DNA of 42,034 bases from the NCBI GenBank assembly GCA_007280875.1, contig QYQJ01000084.1:1-42034 (forward strand), read 5' to 3'. The first letter of the stretch is position 1. Each line of letters begins with the position of its first letter. Shown here piece after piece: positions 262-11,268 of this stretch. The notes beneath the pieces are model-generated. The model saw nothing but the letters and a program-made list of their open reading frames with translations, was not told the origin of the DNA and ran no database searches. Source of the stretch: Bacteroidota bacterium. Lineage in GTDB: Bacteria > Bacteroidota > Bacteroidia > Bacteroidales > FEN-979. Position numbers and translations under genes: made by a program.

Positions 262-1020
262 CTAGTTAACGGTTTTCATATTCTGTTGGGAGAAGAAGCC
301 ATCGGATATGGGTATGTCGAACTTGACGACTTCGATATCCACCAGTGTTTTCTGGTTGGGCTTGTCGGCCGGAATGATTTCGAAGTGAGTGGGGATCTTC
401 CGGTCGTACATGAATCTGATGTCGGAAAGAATGTGTGTTTTCACCAGGTATCCGTCTTCATCGTAGTACTCGGTACGCAATTGATAATACTCCTCCTTGC
501 TGATCCACATAATGATCTTTCCCCATACTACAGCAGCCTCCTCCTTCGGGTCAAGCTGGATCTTAAAACAGGGATACCCTGACTGGATCTCTTCGCCAAT
601 GATTGCGTGCTGGTAGTCCAGCACAATGGAGGACTCCTTCAGAATGTCATCGTTGGTATAATCGGATCCCATCCATCCCTGCGACATCATGGAAGGCGGA
701 AGTTTGATCATCCGGTTAATGGTGGGATTCCAGCTCCACATATCGTTTTTCAGCTTCAGAAAGGATTGACCGCTCTCCTTGGAGGGTGCGATGATCAGGG
801 TGAGGGCATAATCGCGTCCTTTTGTCCAGTTCCTGAAACTAACTTTTCGTTCCCAGGTGGGTCGTACTATCGTCATGGTCATTTCGCTTTCGCTGGAAGC
901 TCCTTCCATCTTATCATTTGCCTTTTTAATGATCGCCGTTGCATCCTGCGCCTGCAGAAGGCCGAAAATCACAATCACGGCGGGTAGCAGAAAAACCCAG
1001 GATAAAAGAGTTTGTTTCAT
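262..1020 (-). CDS. LolA-like outer membrane lipoprotein-sorting protein
   Basis: The chosen start (ATG at 1020) gives a clean signal peptide, MKQTLLSWVFLLPAVIVIFGLLQAQ. An ATG at 1050 would put ten unlikely residues ahead of it and overlap the upstream tetR gene. The mature protein, about 230 residues, resembles the LolA-like family of COG2834: an early 'DATAIIKKANDKMEG' helix, then alternating beta strands with 'SEMTMTIVRPTWERKVSFRNWTKG', 'SFLKLKNDMWSWNP' and 'IKLPPSMMSQGWMGSDYTNDD'. Family members are periplasmic half-barrels that carry lipid-modified or hydrophobic cargo. There is no lipobox cysteine. It sits 17 nt after tetR and 9 nt before the ABC permease. I infer it is the periplasmic carrier between the permease and the outer-membrane barrel encoded in the same operon. 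Confidence 0.85.
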   Translation of the reverse strand: MKQTLLSWVFLLPAVIVIFGLLQAQDATAIIKKANDKMEGASSESEMTMTIVRPTWERKVSFRNWTKGRDYALTLIIAPSKESGQSFLKLKNDMWSWNPTINRMIKLPPSMMSQGWMGSDYTNDDILKESSIVLDYQHAIIGEEIQSGYPCFKIQLDPKEEAAVVWGKIIMWISKEEYYQLRTEYYDEDGYLVKTHILSDIRFMYDRKIPTHFEIIPADKPNQKTLVDIEVVKFDIPISDGFFSQQNMKTVN

Positions 1021-1037: not shown

Positions 1038-1622
1038 TTAAGGTTTGCAATATCGTTGAATAATCAGTTCTTTCATGCGATCGATGGGAAATTTTTCCGG
1101 ATTGAACACATAATTCATATAGATTCCATCCAGCATGGCAAGGAAGAACCAGGTCTCGAGCTCCGGGTCCTTAAAGTTATGCGTCCGGAAATAGGTTGCG
1201 ATCATTCTCCACATGCCTGAAGACAGGATCTCTGACTGAAACCGCCGGATCAACTCCTGTGCGGAGGGCTGGACCAGGAGCATGAAAAGGAATTTCCAGA
1301 AATCGATATTCAGCATCAGCATCCGGACCTGCTGCTCAATGAAGTAGACCATCTCTTCGGTGGTCAGGATCCCGTCGTGATCCGGATCGAAAAAGGCATA
1401 CAGATGCTTGACGCTGGCTTTGATGATCTCTTCCAGCAACTCCTCCTTACTGGTGAAATAATTATATATGAGCCCTTTGGAAATTCCCGCCTTTTTTGCA
1501 ATCTGCTGAATCGTCGTATGCGAGATCCCCTGTTTTGCAAAGAGTTCAAGGGCCGTGCCCAGGATCAACTCCCGCCGGTCTTCCCTGATCTTTGCATATT
1601 GTTCTTTGGTTCTGGGGCTCAT
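1038..1622 (-). CDS. TetR/AcrR family transcriptional regulator containing an EF-hand-like loop
   Basis: This is a 194-residue protein. The N-terminal helix-turn-helix of TetR repressors lies at about residues 16-62, with 'ALELFAKQGISHTTIQQIAKKAGISKGLIYNYF' matching the family signature closely. The C-terminal half is helical and presumably binds ligand and dimerises. Residues 79-90 (DPDHDGILTTEE) fit the 12-residue EF-hand calcium loop: Asp at 1, 3 and 5, Gly at 6, a hydrophobic residue at 8 and Glu at 12. Helix-like sequence lies on both sides. The gene is second in the operon, 9 nt after the barrel gene and 17 nt before the LolA-like gene. The palindrome in the operon promoter (2831-2850) is its likely operator, giving autorepression. 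Its inducer is unknown; calcium is a possibility raised only by the loop. Confidence 0.93.
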   Translation of the reverse strand: MSPRTKEQYAKIREDRRELILGTALELFAKQGISHTTIQQIAKKAGISKGLIYNYFTSKEELLEEIIKASVKHLYAFFDPDHDGILTTEEMVYFIEQQVRMLMLNIDFWKFLFMLLVQPSAQELIRRFQSEILSSGMWRMIATYFRTHNFKDPELETWFFLAMLDGIYMNYVFNPEKFPIDRMKELIIQRYCKP

Positions 1623-1631
1623 ACCACTTTT

Positions 1632-2816
1632 TTAAAAATTCCATTTCAGTCGCAACGCAGCAATACAGGCCCTGAACTTGAGGCTCTGATCATGCTGCGG
1701 ACCGGTGTGGGTAAAACGTCCGTTGAAATACTGGGCGAATACACTAAGATCCAGATTCTGGCGGACCGAATAGTTGATAGTCGGACCGATGAAAAAGCCG
1801 TTCAGATCGGGGTAATACATGGCTGCCAAGTTCACATCGAAGAGAGGTGTGACAGGATAAGATCCTTGCAGGAAGATATTCCATTCGGCAAAGGAAAGGA
1901 TTTTAGGCGAAGGGGGAGCCTGGTACAATGATATGAAGTTTTCCGGTTGAAAATCGGGGGGCAACTGGTTGTAAAAGATCTGAAAAACCAGGTAGAGTGA
2001 ATTGGAGAATGAGTAATCGATCCCCATCGTGGCCAGCAACAGCCCGCTGGTATCCCGGGATGCATTCTTCGGATAAAAATAGCTGATCTCCCCTCTGAAA
2101 GCAGCCTGACTTATGTTTCCCGACCACCCTGCGCCGATCACATAATCCCGGTCGTCCACCAAACCGCCCAGGAACTGGATGTCATACTGTTTTAGGTTAA
2201 ACCGGCAGAGCCCTGCTACCGTGATCTTTCCCTGGTTGTTCCATTTGATCGCAGCTTCCAGCACGGAGGTATAACCCGGATAGAACTGCAACCGGATGGC
2301 ATCGCTGCCTGGCCGCTCCGGGTAATCAAAATCATAGAAAGAGTAAGTGTTGAAGATATCGTTGGGATTCCAGACGATAGCCTGCCCCCAGTTGATCCGT
2401 TGTCGCCCGACTGTAAGCTGAACTTTACCCGCTGTGAGGGAGAACCAGGCCCGGTCGAACTGGGAGACCAGTAGAAAGGATTCTCCCGAGAAGATACTCC
2501 ATGTCAGGTTGACCAGGCCCGGATCGGTCGTCAGAGATCCCTTGTATGCCGGATTCTGTGCAAAGCTCTGTCCGAACAGGAACCGGTTCCGCATGCCCAG
2601 TCCCAGCCTGAATACCTTTCCAGGATGCCAGAAGAAATCAAGCCGGTTCTGCAACTCATTGTCCAGGATCCAGGGATCATTGATCTTCTGAAACTGGACC
2701 ATTTGCAAATCGTTCAGATATCCCTTCAGTTCCCAGCTTCTGGTTTTACCGGGCGACTGAGTCCATCCGATCAGTGGAAGGGAGATAAGAATGAAAATGC
2801 ATGCAGTTCTTGACAT
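1632..2816 (-). CDS. Predicted outer-membrane beta-barrel protein (DUF1302-like porin)
   Basis: The 394-residue protein has a signal peptide (MSRTACIFILISLPLIGWTQ) and then long runs of alternating polar and hydrophobic residues rich in Tyr, Trp and Phe. It ends in '..ACIAALRLKWNF', the terminal aromatic strand expected of a substrate of the barrel-assembly machinery. The segment 'LTVGRQRINWGQAIVWNPNDIFN' resembles DUF1302-type barrels, where a 'GRQ.I.WG' strand is common. In other bacteria such barrels are often encoded beside LolA-like proteins and inner-membrane exporters. It is the first gene of the operon; the ATG lies 14 nt downstream of the operator. Function is inferred as the outer-membrane component of a lipid or lipoprotein export route. 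The substrate is unknown, and the family call should be confirmed by profile search. Confidence 0.75.
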   Translation of the reverse strand: MSRTACIFILISLPLIGWTQSPGKTRSWELKGYLNDLQMVQFQKINDPWILDNELQNRLDFFWHPGKVFRLGLGMRNRFLFGQSFAQNPAYKGSLTTDPGLVNLTWSIFSGESFLLVSQFDRAWFSLTAGKVQLTVGRQRINWGQAIVWNPNDIFNTYSFYDFDYPERPGSDAIRLQFYPGYTSVLEAAIKWNNQGKITVAGLCRFNLKQYDIQFLGGLVDDRDYVIGAGWSGNISQAAFRGEISYFYPKNASRDTSGLLLATMGIDYSFSNSLYLVFQIFYNQLPPDFQPENFISLYQAPPSPKILSFAEWNIFLQGSYPVTPLFDVNLAAMYYPDLNGFFIGPTINYSVRQNLDLSVFAQYFNGRFTHTGPQHDQSLKFRACIAALRLKWNF

Positions 2817-2830
2817 ACAAACAGTTTAGA

Positions 2831-2850
2831 TTGACTAAGCGGTCAGTCAA
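2831..2850 (-). promoter_or_regulatory. TetR-type operator palindrome
   Basis: An inverted repeat, TTGACT-N8-AGTCAA, matches at 8 of 10 positions per half-site if the inner bases are included (TTGACTAAGC against TTGACTGACC). Length and symmetry fit TetR-family operators. It overlaps the last bases of the -7 box and covers the expected transcription start, so binding would block initiation. The regulator encoded as the second gene of the operon is the natural candidate. Confidence 0.75.
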
Positions 2851-2879
2851 AAATAAATAATGGAAATGGAACAACCAAA
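2848..2879 (-). promoter_or_regulatory. Bacteroidetes-type promoter for the barrel-tetR-lolA-permease operon
   Basis: On the - strand there is a -33 TTTG (2879-2876), exactly 20 nt of spacer, then TATTTTTG (2855-2848). This matches the Bacteroidetes consensus TTTG-N19-21-TAnnTTTG at every fixed position. The barrel ATG is 31 nt further on. The -33 element lies inside the A/T tail of the preceding terminator. Confidence 0.8.
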
Positions 2880-2908
2880 AAAAAACCGGAAAAAATCCGG
2901 TTTTTTTA
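2877..2908 (-). terminator. Rho-independent terminator after the PorP/SprF gene
   Basis: The arms ACCGGA (2885-2890) and TCCGGT (2896-2901) flank a five-base A loop. A:T pairs extend the stem on both sides, and nine T residues follow on the - strand (2885-2877). The hairpin begins just after the PorP/SprF stop at 2914 and separates that unit from the next promoter. The structure could also terminate in the + direction, though no + strand gene reads into it. Confidence 0.85.
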
Positions 2909-2913
2909 TCCTG

Positions 2914-4038
2914 TTAATAGAAACTCGGGCATTCGAGTGGTCCGTATCCTTTGGACCGGCCCGTTGGGATGAATCCGCGGTTTCCGGCGCCTCCACCACC
3001 ACCTCCGGTCCCACCGAAGAGGGAGAGTCCGTCAAACTCCAGCACGAGGCTGATCTCATGCGCGCCACCGGTTCCCTGCATCATACCGGCAATCTGCAGG
3101 TCATAACTGTAGATGAACTTGATGCTCATATCCTGCATGAACATGTACCGGTATCCGGCCAGTAAGGCAACCGAGTTGTTGGTATTCCCGGTCATGGTGG
3201 TTTTGTACCACCCACCCAGGTAGATATTGAACTTCAGCAGGTTCAATCCGATTTCCAGCGTATTGAGGTTAGCCTGGTTCTGGAACATGAATCCCGGATT
3301 GATCATCAGCGGGTTCCCGTTGTGCCCGTACATACTGGAGGAAGCTCCGTAACCTGTCATAAAGATGGCATCTCCGTGCACAACCCATTTCCGCGGGTAG
3401 GGTGCACTTCCGTCGGCGAGCAGGGAAACATCCGGTTTAAACAGGTGATCCACGGCAAATCCAATGGATCCGGATATATTGCCGGGTTCGTTGGAAAACT
3501 GAAGGATGCCTCCGGCAGCAAAGTCGGGCACTACCCGTGAATTGATATCCGGTGGAATAAACGAGGTTTCATAAATGGCTCCGTATTTTGGATCGAGCTG
3601 ATCAGCAAACACCAGGTCGTCCCAATTAACTTTCCGCTGCAATATGGCTGCTTTCACCCCGATCTGGGCAGCCATGAAGCTGGCAATGGGAACCCTGACC
3701 CCGATAGTCAGGGCAGCCTGCAGGGTATTGATTAATCCCGCTCCCGGTGAATCTGAATTGATCATGATGCCGATCCCCCCTGCCCCGGGAAGGTTCCGGT
3801 CTCCGATATCCGCCGAAAAATAGTATGACTTGAAATCGATCGGCAGCGATGGCCATTGATCCCGGAAGAGGAACCTCGCCCGCAACCCTGTATTGATCCC
3901 GGTGAAGGCCGGGTTGTAGTAGAGGGGCGTGCTGAAGTATTGAGAATAGTAGACATCCGGAACCTGTGCCTGGATGCCCGGCGACCATCCCAACAGTCCC
4001 AGGATTACGAAGTATGAATATATAAAAACCTTTTTCAT
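2914..4038 (-). CDS. PorP/SprF family T9SS-associated outer-membrane protein
   Basis: The 374-residue protein has a signal peptide (ending about residue 24, 'GIQAQ') and the family hallmark 'PDVYYSQYFSTPLYYNPAFTG', followed by 'RARFLFRDQWP'. The rest is a beta-barrel with many short aromatic strands. PorP/SprF proteins are outer-membrane partners of T9SS; SprF of Flavobacterium is needed to bring the giant adhesin SprB to the cell surface, and the two genes are adjacent. The same arrangement appears here: the gene starts 18 nt after the stop of the 2403-residue PKD protein, in one transcription unit closed by the terminator at 2877-2908. After the final barrel strand ('EISLVLEFDGLSLF') there is an unusual tail of about 35 residues, with a seven-residue Gly-rich run and a single Cys near the end ('LECPSFY'). 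Confidence 0.92.
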   Translation of the reverse strand: MKKVFIYSYFVILGLLGWSPGIQAQVPDVYYSQYFSTPLYYNPAFTGINTGLRARFLFRDQWPSLPIDFKSYYFSADIGDRNLPGAGGIGIMINSDSPGAGLINTLQAALTIGVRVPIASFMAAQIGVKAAILQRKVNWDDLVFADQLDPKYGAIYETSFIPPDINSRVVPDFAAGGILQFSNEPGNISGSIGFAVDHLFKPDVSLLADGSAPYPRKWVVHGDAIFMTGYGASSSMYGHNGNPLMINPGFMFQNQANLNTLEIGLNLLKFNIYLGGWYKTTMTGNTNNSVALLAGYRYMFMQDMSIKFIYSYDLQIAGMMQGTGGAHEISLVLEFDGLSLFGGTGGGGGGAGNRGFIPTGRSKGYGPLECPSFY

Positions 4039-4056: not shown

Positions 4057-7000
4057 TTACCGAATTAATATGACAGTCCCCATATTCTTGAACTCCCCTT
4101 TCCCGATATCGGAGCCTTCCCATGGTGAATTGTCGATAAAGGTGGCGCTTACCTTCCACATATAGTTCCCCGACGGCATGATATTCCCGTTATAGTTACC
4201 GTCCCATCCTTCGACGGGCCGGCCCTGCGGATCAATCTCGGTAGATTCCCACATGAGGTGTCCGGCATTATCAAAGACCTGGATATGGTACTTCTTCAGG
4301 TTGATCCCCACCGGCTTGAATAACCTGACCGCCAGGTTTGTACTCCCTGGTGCGAAGGCATTGGGGATATAAAGGCCCTTGAATAGGAGCTCATATTCAA
4401 AGAAGGTGGTATCGGTACATCCATACTGATTCAATGAGATCAGTTCGATGATATAGGTGCCATCTTCGGTATAGGTGATGATTGGATTTTCTTCATCCGA
4501 GGTTTTTCCGTTACCGAAACTCCAGAGGTAACCGTCGGCCCCTGTCGAAAGGTTATTCATCTGCAGCTTCCCATTCATCCCATCAATATATTCAGTGATA
4601 TGGAAGGCGCTGAGCGGGGTCACGTATACCGTCAGTGTTGAATCGATGGTGTCGCGGCAGCCGTTCAGATCCTGTACGATCATACGCACCGTATAGGTTC
4701 CCAGGGAATCATAGATATAGACCGGATCCTGCAGATTGGAGGTATCCTTGACGGTACCGGGCACACCAAAGTTCCATCGCCACAATCCCAGAGAAGTATC
4801 CGACGGTACGGAAAGATCCGTGAACAGCGTCGGATCGCCTTCACAGGGCGGGGTGCTTTCAAATGCAGCAGCCGGGATATTAAACACCCTGGTTGTTTTG
4901 GTCAGTGAATCGGAACATCCAAACCTGTTGGCCACAATCATCCGGACATCGTAGCTGCCCGGATTCATGTATTTGTGCCATGGATTCTTGAAAGTAGAAG
5001 TATCCGAGGTGCCAGATCCGGGCTCTCCGAAGTTCCAGTACCAGGATGTATTGGGTTCACCAAAAGTGATGGAGGTATCCGTAAAGAGGTTGACCTGGTT
5101 GAAACAGACGGGGATGTTGGCGAAGTAAGGCTCCGGTGTAGGTCTGATCCGGATCAGCTTAAAGGTACTGTCGGTGAAGGGCACCCCACTCACCATTGCA
5201 TTGATTACCAACCGTACAATGTAAGTACCATTTACAGCGTACTCATGAGGGATGGTTTCGGAGTAGGTGGTATAGGTGGTATCCAAGCCATCACCGAAAG
5301 TCCAGTGCCACTGATTAATACTGCTCACCGGGAAGGAACTGTCGGCAAACACCACCGGGTTCCTTGCGCAAAACTGGGTATCGGAAACAATGATGGCGCT
5401 GATGCAGGCATACCGTTGCACTGTTTCGGAAATGGAATCGACGCATCCGTTATCATTGGTCACAATAAGAGTCACGTTATATGTCCCGATAATGGGATAG
5501 AGATGCGAAGTATTCCCTGGTCCGGGCGCATTGATGGTCACGGGTGCACTGCCATCGCCGAAATGCCATTCCCAGCTGGCAATCGAGTTTCCTCCCGGGG
5601 CACTCATATCGGTGAAGTCAACAATGCTGTCGCAGGGTTCGGAAATAAATGTGAACGCGGGTTGAGGCAGGTCGTAGACGGTCACCTCCCTGTAAACGCT
5701 GTCCACACAGTTATCGGTATTCCAGGCTTTCAGTTTGACGATGTACGTACCTGGTCCAGTAAAGGTATGCGAAGGCTTGTATTTGTAAGAGATGTTGTTC
5801 TGGCCGGAAGCCGGATTTCCGAAGTTCCATGCGACGGAGTAGAGAGAGTCTCCCTCGGCCAGATTCTGTGCCTGGAAGTGAGTCGGATACCCGTAACAGA
5901 CCGAATCGTTACTGAAAGTGAACGCAAAGCCGGGTTTCACATAAACACTGTCAACGACCGTGTCCATACACCCGTAGTTGTCTGTAACGATCAGGGTGAC
6001 CGCATACGTCGTGTCCGTTTGTGAAAAGACATGGATTGGATTGGGGCCCATGCCAGTATAACCCGGTTCAAAGATCCAGTACCGGTCCACGATGGTGGAG
6101 CCGGCCCCCAGCGATTCATCCTGAAAGTTCACCTGCCCGGCCGGACAGAAGAAATTGACGTAAGAGAACATGGCTGTCGGGTTATTCCGTACGATAACCT
6201 GCATGATGACCGAATCGATGCAGTTCTCCAGGTTGGTTACCAGCAGCATCACATCGTAAGTGCCTGCTGCTGTGTAAGTATAGACCGGGTTCTGAATGTC
6301 AGAGGTCCCTGTACCATCACCGAAATCCCAGTGCCATGAAACAATGGTACTACCCGGTGCGATGGAGAGGTCTGTGAATTGGGTTAGACTGCCCAGACAG
6401 GCTGCAGAATAGGTGAACATGGCATTAGGTACCGGATGGACCGCGATCTGCATCGAGGTATCATCCACACACCCAGCGGAGTTTGTAGCTGTCAGGGTGA
6501 CATTGTAGGTTCCGATATTGGTAAATACGTGTGTCGGATTCTGCAGCGTGGAACTATTGTTCGAACCGGAGGCCGGATCTCCGAAATTCCACAGCCATCC
6601 GATAATCGTCCCTGCGGGGGTGGTAGAGGCATCGGTGAAGCTAGTCGGTAATCCGAAACAGGCTGTATCGGCCGTAAACTCTGCTGCCGGTGCATCGCTG
6701 ATGGTAACCGTTTTGGATATTGAGTCGATGCAACCGTTAATATTGCTGACCGTCAGTGTGACGTCAAATGTTCCACCGGTGGAAAAGGCATGAGTAGGAT
6801 TCTTGATCTGCGAGGTGTTATTGGTTCCCGAACCGGGATCGTCGAAATCCCAGTTCCACGAGATGAGGGTTCCCCCTCCGTTCTGCTGAGTCAGATCGGT
6901 GAACTGCAGTTCAATGTTTTCGCAGCCATTCGCTGCAAACGAGAAATTTGCCGCCGGAGCATAGTTGATCAGTACCAGGTTTGTTTTTACCGCGGTACAT

Positions 7001-10000
7001 CCGTCACTGTTGGTTATGGTGAGTGTCACGGTATAGGATCCTCCGTTTGCATAACTGTGCGAGATATTGGGACTCGCCGGATAGGTAATGGTAACCGGGG
7101 GTGTTCCGTCTCCAAAATTCCAAACCCATTGCGTGATGAATCCATGCGGCGAGTTGGAGAGGTCTGTAAACAGGACAGAGTCTCCTGCACAGGCTGGGGA
7201 GTTGTAACTGAAAGCAGCAGAGAGTGCAGGGTAAACAATCACCTGTTTGGTGGTATCCTTTGTACAACCGAAGGAGGTTGTTACGGTCAGTTTCACCGAA
7301 TAGGATCCCGGATTGGTGTAGAGATGCGTAGGGTTAGCCCCTGTGCCGGTCTGGCCGTCACCAAACTCCCAGTACCGGCTGGTAATAGTTCCCGTAGATG
7401 TGGTAGAGAGGTCGGTAAAGTGCGTCAGGTTCCCCAGACACGCAGTATCGGCCGAGAAGTTGGCCACCGGACGGGCATTGACCGTTACAGAGATCACGAC
7501 GGTATCCATACACCCGTTGGTGTTGGTCACGATCAGTCGCACATCAAATACACCGGAAGTGGTGAAGGCGTGCGACGGATTCTGGGCGTTGGAATTATTG
7601 TTCAATCCCGACGCAGGATCGTCGAAGTTCCAGGCCCATTGTACGATGTTGCCGCCTCCGTTAGGCTGAGAAAGATCGGTAAACGGAACCAGGTTCTGGG
7701 CACAGGGGGATCCCGGAAAGGTGAAGTTGGCCAAGGGTGCCGGGATGCTGTTCACCACATGTTCAATGTATTTTATGCAACCATGGCTGGTGGTAACAGT
7801 GAGCCTTACGGTATGTGAAAGAGCAGTGCCGACAAAGGTGTGCGTCACATTGGGATTACCCGGATAATTAATGGTTTGCGTCGTTCCGTCTCCAAAATTC
7901 CAAACCCATGTGACAATGTTGTCGATAAATCCCGGGACGGTCGATGATTGGTTTGTAAATGTTACTACTGCACCAAAACAGTTGGGTGAGCTGTAACTGA
8001 ATTCAGGTACCGGTAACGGATAAACAAGAACACTTTTAGAAACGGAATGGACACACCCGTTCGAATTGATGATCGTCAGGGTAACCGTATAGGTGCCGTA
8101 ACTGGCATAGATATGCGTAGGGGCGGGTTGGGTGTTCAAGGGTGATCCGTCACCGAAGTTCCATGAATAGGATATGATGCTGGCTGCATTGGGGATCGAC
8201 AGATTGGTAAAGGTAGTGGCTGATCCAAGGCAAGCTGTATCGGCTGTAAAGTTGGCGACAGGAAGCGGATTCACCACAACGGTCTTCATCACCGTGTCGT
8301 CACAGTTGTTGACATTGAAGGCTGTCAGTGTAACAATGTAAGCCCCGGCTGTAGCATAGGTATGTGACGGGTTTTGCAGGGGGGAGAAGTTGTTCCCTCC
8401 GGAGGCAGGGTCACCGAAATTCCAGAGATAGGATGTGATCTGACCACCCCCGTTTGTCTGGGTCAGGTTGGTAAAGTTAATCGGTTGATTCTGGCAGTTG
8501 GTGGAAGAGTAAGAGAAATTGGCAATCGGTGCAGGGATCAGGTTGACAGTTTTCGTAACAGATTGTGTACAACTATCGTTCGACCAGACTGTAAGTGTAA
8601 CGTTATAACTGGTACTGACGCCTACAAAGGTATGGTAGACGTTAGGGGAATTCGGGACAACAATCGTTTGTGTAGTGCCATCACCAAAGTTCCAGCGCCA
8701 TTTCGCAATGTAGCCGGTATATCCGGGCGGGATATAGGATTGACTCGTAAACAGTATCGAATCTCCCTGGCAGGATGGAGAATTCCATGTGAAATTAGCC
8801 ACCGGGAGCGGGTTGACCCGGACGGTATGGGAGACTGAATTTTGGCATCCATGGTGGTCAATAACAAGTAAGGTAACCGTATAGACTCCCGGAGATGCAT
8901 AGAGGTGTTGTGTGGTGATCGGATCGGTTACCGGTGGTGTGCCGTCCCCGAAGTTCCACGACCAGATAACGATGGAATCGACATGGGTAACTGAGGTGTC
9001 GGCCCAGAATGTCGTCAGGGTACTCTGGCAGGCGGTATCATACAGGAAATTGACCGGCGGGGAAGGGAAGACATAGACCGGTTTGATAATGGTATCCCGG
9101 CAGTTGTTGAAATTGACCACGATCAACCGTACCAGGTAGGTCGAATCCCCATGTGCAAAGGTGTGGGTCGGGTTCTTCAGTGCGGAGGTGTTGTTGACTC
9201 CGGATCCCGGATCGGCAAACTTCCAGTTCCAGCTGATGATATTCCCGCCTCCGTTTGGCGTCGACATATCCGTGAAGCTCACTACCTGGCTCTGACAGGC
9301 AGTGGAATAGATAAAGTTTGCGATCGGGTTGGGTTTGATGATCACGTTCTGGGTCAGACTGTCGGTATATCCATTGTTATCGACCACATGAAGGGTTACC
9401 GCAAAGGTATCCACCGTTGCATAGAGATGACAAATGTTCGGGTCGTTTGGAAAATGGATCGTATCATTGGGGGAGCCGTCTCCGAATTCCCAGATCCAGG
9501 TGGTGATATAGCCGTACGGCGGTGACGGAACCGAACTTAGGTCGGTAAAGCAGACAGGCTGGCCAAAACAAACCGGTGAATTGGATGCAAAGAAGGCGTG
9601 GGGGACAGATGGCACTATAACAGGATAGGTTATCTCATTCGTACACCCGATTGTATCAATCACATATAACGTGACCATAAAGGTTCCAGCAGCCGGGTAG
9701 ACATGGACTGGATTCCATCCATAGCCCCAGCTACCATCGTCGAAATTCCACAAAACCATGTTTCCGATCAGATTCCGGTCGGTAACAACCGTATCGATGT
9801 GAAACTGGATCTCATTATTCTGGTTTCCGTAATTCCAGGTATAATCCACGTCAGGAGAGTCGAATACAATGACCTCTTTGATGATGGTATCGGGACATCC
9901 GGTGGAATTCACGGTGATCAGCATCACATCGTAGGTTCCGACAACCGAGAACAGATGGCTGGGATTCTCCAGGGTGGAGGTGTTGAATCCGGAGGCGGGG

Positions 10001-11268
10001 TCATCAAAATTCCAGAGGTAAGAGACAATTTCCGGACCGTTATTCTGCTGGGACAGGTTCGTGAAGGGGACCGTATCTCCCACGCAGGCTGCCTCGTAAC
10101 TGAAATCGGCTATGGGCGAAGGATCAAGATAAATGCTGGTAGTGGTTGAGTCACGGCAACCCTGGTTGGTGATCACCGTGAGCCGGGTTAGATAGGGACC
10201 CAGACTGGGATAATAGTGGGTCAGATTCGGAGAATTTGGCGCGTTAATGATTACGGGAGGAGTGGCATCGCCGAAATTCCAGATCCATGTAACGATATTC
10301 TTACCTACCGGAAAGGTCGACAGATCGGTAAAATCGACCGGATTATTCAAACAGGTCGGGGTGGTAAAGGTGTACTGTGCATCCGGAATGGATGGTTCGA
10401 TTGTAACAAGGATAGTGGTATCGTTTTTACAATATCGTTCATTCGTAATCTGAAGGTAAACTGAAAAGGTGCCGGGGGCCGAGAAGACGTGGGTGGGATT
10501 CTGCAGCGTGCTGATATTGGCGGCTCCGGAGCCGGGATCACCGAAATTCCAGTCCCAGTGAATGATGTTTCCTGTTTCCGGAGGAGTTGTAGAGGCCGTA
10601 CTGTTAAATGGTACAGGTGTGTAAAGGCAGTTCGGAATCGTGCTGGAAAAGACAGGATGAGGGATATATTGATCCGGGTTTACGTATACCGCATCAATGA
10701 TCGTATCTTTATTTCCTGCCTGGTTTGTCACAACCAGTGTCACGGTATAGGTCTGATTGAAAGGAGGCATATACTGATGCTGCGGATTCTGTAAAACAGA
10801 AGTTCCTCCATCCCCAAAGGTCCAGTAATAGTTTACAATAGGGAAGGCTGCATCGGCTATGGATGCATCCCAGAACGAAACAATATCCCCATAACAGGAG
10901 GTATTGGTATAATAAAAGTAAGAGATCAGGAGCGGCAGGATAGATACCGTTTTGTTGACGGTAGTGGAACAGGCTGCAGCCGGATTGGTTTCGGTCAGTG
11001 AAATAGTTCCCGTACCAATATTCCCCCAGTTGATGGTAATCTGACTGGTCCCGGCTCCTGAGCCGATTGTTCCTCCCGACACAGTCCAGGCATAGGTATG
11101 CCCGGGTATATTGGGGGTAGAGTATATGACTCCCAGCTGATTGTTGCTGACAACTCCCGGGCCAGTGATAACGGGCGAATTATCCGGACAGGGCTGAGCA
11201 AATGAACCAGATGGTACCAATGCCACCAGAAAAAGTGCCAGAACAATGGGTAAAAATCTACGGAACAT
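4057..11268 (-). CDS. Giant T9SS-secreted cell-surface protein with 25 PKD repeats (SprB-like adhesin candidate)
   Basis: The 2403-residue protein has a signal peptide at residues 1-24 and a first Ig/PKD-like domain ('TYAWTVSGGTIGSG'). It then has 25 PKD domains, counted by the core motif 'W.WNFGDG/FGDP'. Each repeat is about 85-90 residues and usually has a pair of cysteines (early 'C.G/C.N', late 'GC.D'), probably a disulfide. The last ~95 residues ('IPNAFAPGSTNLAVRLFKP...VEGWDGNYNG...SGNYMWKV') form the gliding-motility-associated C-terminal (CHU_C) domain that serves as a T9SS type B sorting signal, leading to surface display. Repeats 6-17 form four copies of a three-domain unit. The gene is followed by PorP/SprF. 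A role in adhesion or surface motility is inferred from this pairing; no catalytic domain is seen. The start ATG at 11268 directly precedes the signal peptide. Confidence 0.93.
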   Translation of the reverse strand: MFRRFLPIVLALFLVALVPSGSFAQPCPDNSPVITGPGVVSNNQLGVIYSTPNIPGHTYAWTVSGGTIGSGAGTSQITINWGNIGTGTISLTETNPAAACSTTVNKTVSILPLLISYFYYTNTSCYGDIVSFWDASIADAAFPIVNYYWTFGDGGTSVLQNPQHQYMPPFNQTYTVTLVVTNQAGNKDTIIDAVYVNPDQYIPHPVFSSTIPNCLYTPVPFNSTASTTPPETGNIIHWDWNFGDPGSGAANISTLQNPTHVFSAPGTFSVYLQITNERYCKNDTTILVTIEPSIPDAQYTFTTPTCLNNPVDFTDLSTFPVGKNIVTWIWNFGDATPPVIINAPNSPNLTHYYPSLGPYLTRLTVITNQGCRDSTTTSIYLDPSPIADFSYEAACVGDTVPFTNLSQQNNGPEIVSYLWNFDDPASGFNTSTLENPSHLFSVVGTYDVMLITVNSTGCPDTIIKEVIVFDSPDVDYTWNYGNQNNEIQFHIDTVVTDRNLIGNMVLWNFDDGSWGYGWNPVHVYPAAGTFMVTLYVIDTIGCTNEITYPVIVPSVPHAFFASNSPVCFGQPVCFTDLSSVPSPPYGYITTWIWEFGDGSPNDTIHFPNDPNICHLYATVDTFAVTLHVVDNNGYTDSLTQNVIIKPNPIANFIYSTACQSQVVSFTDMSTPNGGGNIISWNWKFADPGSGVNNTSALKNPTHTFAHGDSTYLVRLIVVNFNNCRDTIIKPVYVFPSPPVNFLYDTACQSTLTTFWADTSVTHVDSIVIWSWNFGDGTPPVTDPITTQHLYASPGVYTVTLLVIDHHGCQNSVSHTVRVNPLPVANFTWNSPSCQGDSILFTSQSYIPPGYTGYIAKWRWNFGDGTTQTIVVPNSPNVYHTFVGVSTSYNVTLTVWSNDSCTQSVTKTVNLIPAPIANFSYSSTNCQNQPINFTNLTQTNGGGQITSYLWNFGDPASGGNNFSPLQNPSHTYATAGAYIVTLTAFNVNNCDDTVMKTVVVNPLPVANFTADTACLGSATTFTNLSIPNAASIISYSWNFGDGSPLNTQPAPTHIYASYGTYTVTLTIINSNGCVHSVSKSVLVYPLPVPEFSYSSPNCFGAVVTFTNQSSTVPGFIDNIVTWVWNFGDGTTQTINYPGNPNVTHTFVGTALSHTVRLTVTTSHGCIKYIEHVVNSIPAPLANFTFPGSPCAQNLVPFTDLSQPNGGGNIVQWAWNFDDPASGLNNNSNAQNPSHAFTTSGVFDVRLIVTNTNGCMDTVVISVTVNARPVANFSADTACLGNLTHFTDLSTTSTGTITSRYWEFGDGQTGTGANPTHLYTNPGSYSVKLTVTTSFGCTKDTTKQVIVYPALSAAFSYNSPACAGDSVLFTDLSNSPHGFITQWVWNFGDGTPPVTITYPASPNISHSYANGGSYTVTLTITNSDGCTAVKTNLVLINYAPAANFSFAANGCENIELQFTDLTQQNGGGTLISWNWDFDDPGSGTNNTSQIKNPTHAFSTGGTFDVTLTVSNINGCIDSISKTVTISDAPAAEFTADTACFGLPTSFTDASTTPAGTIIGWLWNFGDPASGSNNSSTLQNPTHVFTNIGTYNVTLTATNSAGCVDDTSMQIAVHPVPNAMFTYSAACLGSLTQFTDLSIAPGSTIVSWHWDFGDGTGTSDIQNPVYTYTAAGTYDVMLLVTNLENCIDSVIMQVIVRNNPTAMFSYVNFFCPAGQVNFQDESLGAGSTIVDRYWIFEPGYTGMGPNPIHVFSQTDTTYAVTLIVTDNYGCMDTVVDSVYVKPGFAFTFSNDSVCYGYPTHFQAQNLAEGDSLYSVAWNFGNPASGQNNISYKYKPSHTFTGPGTYIVKLKAWNTDNCVDSVYREVTVYDLPQPAFTFISEPCDSIVDFTDMSAPGGNSIASWEWHFGDGSAPVTINAPGPGNTSHLYPIIGTYNVTLIVTNDNGCVDSISETVQRYACISAIIVSDTQFCARNPVVFADSSFPVSSINQWHWTFGDGLDTTYTTYSETIPHEYAVNGTYIVRLVINAMVSGVPFTDSTFKLIRIRPTPEPYFANIPVCFNQVNLFTDTSITFGEPNTSWYWNFGEPGSGTSDTSTFKNPWHKYMNPGSYDVRMIVANRFGCSDSLTKTTRVFNIPAAAFESTPPCEGDPTLFTDLSVPSDTSLGLWRWNFGVPGTVKDTSNLQDPVYIYDSLGTYTVRMIVQDLNGCRDTIDSTLTVYVTPLSAFHITEYIDGMNGKLQMNNLSTGADGYLWSFGNGKTSDEENPIITYTEDGTYIIELISLNQYGCTDTTFFEYELLFKGLYIPNAFAPGSTNLAVRLFKPVGINLKKYHIQVFDNAGHLMWESTEIDPQGRPVEGWDGNYNGNIMPSGNYMWKVSATFIDNSPWEGSDIGKGEFKNMGTVILIR
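6437..9616 (-). repeat. Higher-order repeat: four copies of a three-PKD unit inside the giant surface protein
   Basis: PKD domains 6 to 17 cycle through three recognisable types. Type A has a 'GDGT..(I/V)..P.(S/G)PN..H' insert. Type B has 'NGGG' followed by 'F(G/D/A)DP(A/G)SG.NN'. Type C usually opens with 'DTAC'. The order A-B-C occurs four times (units start near 9616, 8818, 8025 and 7236), each about 790-800 bp. Traces extend outward: domain 3 is A-like, domain 4 B-like, and domain 21 A-like, in register. This points to expansion by duplication of three-domain blocks. Confidence 0.75.

Follow-up and report, generated by a model that had tools for sequence, protein, structure and literature searches.

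Gene content of the locus

The window analysed here, a contig of 42,034 nucleotides (QYQJ01000084.1, assembly GCA_007280875.1), belongs to a Bacteroidales-like genome of 3.03 Mb that is 88% complete. On the reverse strand it encodes a beta-barrel-like protein, a TetR-type regulator, a LolA-like protein and the start of a permease, all downstream of a predicted operator (Table 1). On the other side of the terminator-like hairpin, a PorP/SprF-family gene (2914-4038) adjoins a reverse-strand gene (4057-11268) for a protein of 2403 residues with many WxFGDG-type repeats, named by eye, and a C-terminus in the gliding/T9SS style.

Table 1. Predicted features of the regulator locus, with window coordinates
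Feature	Coordinates	Strand	Basis
FtsX/MacB-type permease start, cut by the contig end	1..252	(-)	Translation; relatives in the genus have the full permease
LolA-like outer membrane lipoprotein-sorting protein	262..1020	(-)	Pfam (PF17131, E=2.7e-50)
TetR-type regulator, 194 aa	1038..1622	(-)	ORF; TetR_N E=8.7e-19; TetR fold
Helix alpha5, residues 88-104; outgoing helix	1311..1361	(-)	AlphaFold2/DSSP
EF-hand loop DPDHDGILTTEE, residues 79-90	1353..1388	(-)	Sequence; pattern in 65/108 order-level members; Pfam EF-hand_1 in 72/73 positives at E<=1
Helix alpha4, residues 59-78; incoming helix of an EF-hand-type corner	1389..1448	(-)	AlphaFold2/DSSP
DNA-binding domain, residues 20-66	1425..1565	(-)	Pfam TetR_N
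Outer-membrane beta-barrel-like protein	1632..2816	(-)	Pfam, weak hit to DUF1302 that falls short of the cut-off (E=0.0021); syntenic with the barrel cluster seen at other loci
Sigma-70-like pair TTGACT-16-TAAACT, overlapping the predicted operator	2823..2850	(-)	Agreement with the consensus alone, from which promoters in Bacteroidales often deviate
Predicted operator palindrome GATTGACTAAGCGGTCAGTCAAAA	2829..2852	.	Family matrix score 27.0; sole exact pattern match in own genome
Strong terminator-like hairpin with T tail, between the predicted operator/operon and the upstream PorP/SprF gene	2879..2907	(-)	Sequence

Homologs of the regulator were searched for in 61 relatives, in 393 genomes of the order, 395 of the class and 395 of the phylum, and in the GTDB contig collection. 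These searches delineated a distinct TetR family, most members of which start with MxPRT..Q...IRE. A second match in one genome of the order search (G511), five phylum-search matches within the family range (G157, G343, G388, G180, G364) and six class-search matches were left out of the set analysed, which comprises 163 distinct members.

Over the 163 loci, the common gene order is tetR, the LolA-like gene (at least 147 loci), two permeases (at least 135 and at least 108), an ATPase (at least 98) and the barrel gene (at least 87); these neighbor-cluster counts are lower bounds, many of the loci being short. In the genus of the window, the barrel gene comes first, followed by tetR, the LolA-like gene and the permease. 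Representatives of the operon proteins match PF17131, MacB_PCD together with FtsX, and ABC_tran in Pfam. The gene set of Lol/MacB-type export is thus present across the family; of this set, the window itself contains the LolA-like gene and the first part of a single permease gene. The original prediction had linked the regulator to an envelope-export operon, and the operon as such is supported: a LolA-like protein, two FtsX/MacB permeases, an ABC ATPase and a beta-barrel are encoded together, under a conserved predicted operator. At two loci (L203 and L246), the first permease cluster is duplicated in tandem within the operon.

A predicted operator common to the family

Inverted-repeat counting identified TTGAC-N10-GTCAA upstream of tetR in 47 of 161 regions, compared with at most three in shuffled sequences. 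A matrix built on these 47 exact sites, which come from the same upstream set that was then scored, yields the 24-bp family consensus TTTTGACTGAACGTTCAGTCAAAA; scores of 10 or more were obtained for 142 of the 163 loci (61 of the 73 with the EF-hand loop described below and 81 of the 90 without it), as against none of 3260 shuffles. Because the operator in the genus of the window precedes the barrel gene, loci of this type may score as misses upstream of tetR. In the window, the predicted operator lies 12 bp upstream of the start codon of the barrel gene, and the runner-up in the 42 kb scores -4.1. Searching the window with up to three mismatches gave one match to the operator pattern against 1.53 expected, which alone is uninformative; since the mismatch count proves nothing, the operator assignment rests on the matrix score and on the finding that the exact family pattern occurs once in the 88%-complete genome, at 2829-2852.

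The predicted operator is common to family members with and without the EF-hand loop, so that DNA recognition appears, from the sequences, to be shared by the two groups, and it is the loop that differs. At one locus in a complete genome (L243, G639:C1:879676-879735), two operator-like sites lie 40 bp apart near tetR; a pair of such sites occurs in genome G707 too.

The TetR-type regulator and its EF-hand loop

The regulator matches TetR_N with 67.5 bits (cut-off 24), shows a weak Pfam match to a BetI-type C-terminal ligand domain, and scores below the cut-off of each of the NCBIfam TetR models listed. An AlphaFold2 model computed from a 20-row alignment (mean pLDDT 90.1) is all-helical, and comparison with the PDB using Foldseek and VIA-align points to an ordinary TetR fold (Z up to 17.6, 178 residues, rmsd 3.2). 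Structurally, its neighbors are TetR proteins that bind ligands (FadR, AcrR and RutR, for example); the whole-model searches returned TetR relatives only and are uninformative on the loop. The corner between helices alpha4 and alpha5 is the hinge by which ligands of TetR proteins shift the DNA-binding heads, and it carries the allosteric motion.

This corner is occupied by DPDHDGILTTEE, found at residues 79-90 of the 194-residue product, precisely where the original prediction had located a canonical EF-hand loop. The pattern scan assigns ligands to positions 1, 3, 5 and 12, together with Gly at position 6 and a hydrophobic residue at position 8, and the Met that follows completes the PROSITE EF-hand pattern PS00018. 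The structural setting agrees with the original prediction as well: the loop lies at the very start of the TetR ligand domain, between two predicted helices that border it. In the AlphaFold2 model, the 12-residue loop begins where alpha4 ends, and alpha5 starts with the three final residues of the loop, an EF-hand-like arrangement.

Shuffling the window protein produced the EF-hand pattern, anywhere in the sequence, in 30 of 200,000 cases. Across the fetched loci, the pattern was matched 76 times in 4064 ORFs, a count that includes the positive family members, and in none of the 70 other TetR-like ORFs. Pfam EF-hand_1 scores the window protein at E=0.006 and 16.5 bits, under the curated cut-off of 25.4, and matches 72 of the 73 positive members of the family at E<=1 (best E 1.8e-7). 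Searching the PDB with a profile of nine 52-residue fragments gave 587 matches, the best 60 of which are all EF-hand-containing proteins; those listed include secretagogin, calbindin, neuronal calcium sensor 1, calmodulin and lanmodulin (the last at E=3.1e-8), with E-values that add up several EF-hands per chain, the best single stretch shown being at about 0.1. The model of the isolated 52-residue fragment is a helical hairpin that matched EF-hand structures at insignificant E-values only, a result that, if anything, would count against the EF-hand reading.

Distribution and conservation of the loop

The strict EF-hand pattern is found in 73 of the 163 distinct family members, once per protein and always at the alpha4/alpha5 junction. 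At the order level, 65 of 108 members examined match it and 43 do not, so that conservation of the loop, on which the original prediction was to be judged, holds for part of the homologs only. None of the 29 members examined in the phylum-level sample has the pattern. In the class-level sample it is present in 4 of 28 members examined, all from one other family of the class (L293-L296, family f225, in another order); these four lie beyond the order of the window.

Among the 65 order-level positives, position 12 is invariably Glu, although the pattern permits Asp or Glu; position 9 is Thr in 54, and position 2 is Pro in 44. Non-liganding positions vary in residue among the positive members, and hydrophobic residues flank the loop. 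According to PMC12603986, Pro at position 2 is very uncommon in calmodulin-type loops and prevalent in lanmodulins, and its loss reduces selectivity for lanthanides over calcium.

Selection on the loop was assessed with tests chosen so as not to depend on picking members by the pattern. All six key positions are occupied in 61 of 142 members (below 70% identity), compared with a mean of 7.8 and a maximum of 17 under column shuffling; for members scoring at least 190 bits, the corresponding figures are 58 of 88 and 29.1 (maximum 38). When one protein of a pair is positive and the two are 50-60% identical outside the loop, the other keeps all six positions in 322 of 428 ordered pairs, which are not independent of each other. 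Pair identity is 0.86 at D1, D5, G6 and E12; for non-liganding positions of the loop it falls to 0.33, with 0.53 in the rest of the protein. The full ligand set is kept as a unit across members with a median identity of about 41%.

On an unrooted tree of 160 members, built with the loop columns excluded and with three of the 163 proteins omitted for length, the EF-hand label changes 20 times, compared with 52.7 times in shuffles, none of 500 of which were as low; well-supported branches force just three changes. Where a lineage fails the pattern, it is usually several liganding residues that are missing at once. Within the family to which the window belongs, genera in which the loop has decayed (L015, L017, L019, L021, L022, L024 and L026) cluster with one member that has retained it intact (L016). 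The simplest reading of this distribution would be an early gain followed by many losses, and it suggests a functional site that individual lineages have lost, not a chance motif. Loop-less relatives mostly align at this position without a gap, which makes it most likely that the loop evolved in situ within the TetR protein.

The presence of the loop is not explained by any partner gene: the LolA-like gene accompanies tetR in 67 of 73 positives and 80 of 90 negatives, and short loci confound the differences in gene content seen farther along the operon's downstream side. Homologs that lack the acidic residues in the same operon context, named with the original prediction as evidence against it, do in part exist, given that the LolA-like gene is found in 80 and the predicted operator in 81 of the 90 negatives. 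As the negatives so often share operon and operator, the EF-hand loop is, on comparative grounds, an added feature that was lost repeatedly. Overall, the original observation is borne out and is stronger than the sequence alone could show: the hinge of a TetR subfamily, for which an operon and an operator are predicted, carries a conserved EF-hand-type site.

Comparison with known systems

The regulator resembles TetR/AcrR repressors, such as FadR, AcrR, RutR, MtrR and BetI, in its fold, its TetR_N domain and a predicted palindromic operator adjoining the operon in which it is encoded; unlike it, none of these is described as having an EF-hand. With EF-hand Ca2+ proteins, including calmodulin, calbindin, secretagogin and EfhP of Pseudomonas aeruginosa, it shares the helix-loop-helix arrangement, all PROSITE loop positions and the hydrophobic flanks. 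However, it has a single loop, made from TetR alpha4/alpha5 within a DNA-binding repressor; each of the 73 positives contains one pattern match, so that the pairing of EF-hands is not seen, and there is no sign of common descent of this loop with EF-hand proteins. DREAM/KChIP3 is a eukaryotic DNA-binding repressor with several EF-hands. Like the proposed regulator, it is a repressor that reads Ca2+ directly, although it is eukaryotic and has an unrelated fold.

Convergent Dx[DN]xDG calcium loops (PMC3123361) provide a further parallel, the same linear motif occurring in unrelated folds. According to the available portion of that paper, only EF-hands and calcium blades among these loops are intracellular in large numbers, and TetR regulators are not mentioned in that portion; the present motif differs in lying in a cytosolic TetR fold with both flanking helices kept. 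With respect to gene content, the TetR/ABC/MMPL/LolA-like operons that respond to iron in Porphyromonas and Prevotella, as described in PMC10434189, likewise combine a TetR regulator with ABC components and a LolA-like "outer membrane lipoprotein-sorting protein". An MMPL transporter is part of those operons, as are two ATP-binding proteins; in the present family there is one ATPase, together with two FtsX/MacB permeases. In the literature searched, mostly by title and the opening of the abstract and with few subscription papers included, no EF-hand TetR regulator was found.

Proposed function and alternatives

The reading that we favor, to which we assign an even chance, is that the regulator is an autoregulating repressor in which an EF-hand metal site at the TetR hinge couples Ca2+ to an envelope-export operon. 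In this scheme, suggested by the operator and the synteny, a dimer would bind the 24-bp palindrome and repress its own operon along with itself; the genes under its control would be those for the beta-barrel, TetR itself, the LolA-like carrier and the FtsX/MacB-type ABC export parts. The putative Ca2+ ligands are D79, D81, D83, the carbonyl of I85, and E90. Given the position of the loop, Ca2+ uptake may alter the angle between alpha4 and alpha5 and hence the affinity for DNA. More speculatively, and judging from the nature of the operon, Ca2+ that enters the cytosol when the envelope is stressed and leaky would probably derepress it.

These steps differ in what they draw on. Binding of the regulator at 2829-2852 is predicted from the sequence. 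We infer that the loop takes up metal because the liganding residues are conserved as a set, and that the metal would be Ca2+ because of the 65 of 65 Glu at position 12 and general coordination chemistry. A regulatory instead of a structural role of the loop, and the direction of the response, are likewise inferred. Overall, a calcium function of the regulator is plausible. Against the favored reading stand the single, unpaired loop, the score below the Pfam EF-hand cut-off, and the operon and operator kept by the negatives; because EF-negative relatives retain both, the loop is not essential for basic function. Free Ca2+ in the bacterial cytosol is low, and a lone loop may therefore bind too weakly to sense it.

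The main rival is a structural ion. Ca2+, or Mg2+, could be held permanently as a staple of the alpha4-alpha5 corner, with a lipid or another hydrophobic compound, bound in the pocket typical of TetR proteins, as the actual inducer; we consider this a real possibility, though clearly short of an even chance. The weak match to the BetI-type ligand domain and the ligand-binding fold neighbors FadR, AcrR and RutR agree with such a pocket, and the same operon and operator occur with and without the loop. However, the entire ligand set was lost repeatedly in some lineages while the rest of the protein was kept, which a dispensable, tunable input fits at least as well as does a staple required for folding.

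It is rather improbable that the acidic loop merely caps and turns the two helices, free of metal, and resembles an EF-hand incidentally. The insignificant structural matches of the isolated fragment and the decayed loops of sister genera are compatible with such a role, but the ligand set is held as a unit despite the divergence of the proteins, Glu occupies position 12 in all order-level positives, and all 29 phylum-level relatives manage this corner without a loop of this kind. A minor rival, a site tuned to lanthanides instead of Ca2+ and hence a lanthanide-sensing TetR, is very unlikely: Pro at position 2 and the lanmodulin match would suit it, but position 9 is mostly Thr, no lanthanide gene was found in the operon, and PQQ alcohol dehydrogenase scored above the family cut-off in 0 of 12 genomes of the group, a weak test given 0 of 14 in the controls.

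Returning to Ca2+ sensing by the repressor, a broader claim, more tentative and somewhat doubtful, is that the whole lineage reads cytosolic Ca2+ directly: an EF-hand born de novo at the hinge would link Ca2+ entry upon envelope damage to transcription of an export operon, with no kinase or calmodulin-like intermediary. If true, a complete helix-loop-helix EF-hand arrangement would have been born within an unrelated intracellular fold. Intracellular Ca2+ signaling in bacteria is still debated, largely since direct Ca2+-to-DNA sensors are scarce. A one-component EF-hand repressor with loop-less relatives and a 24-bp operator would make this debate directly testable with one purified protein and a single DNA fragment.
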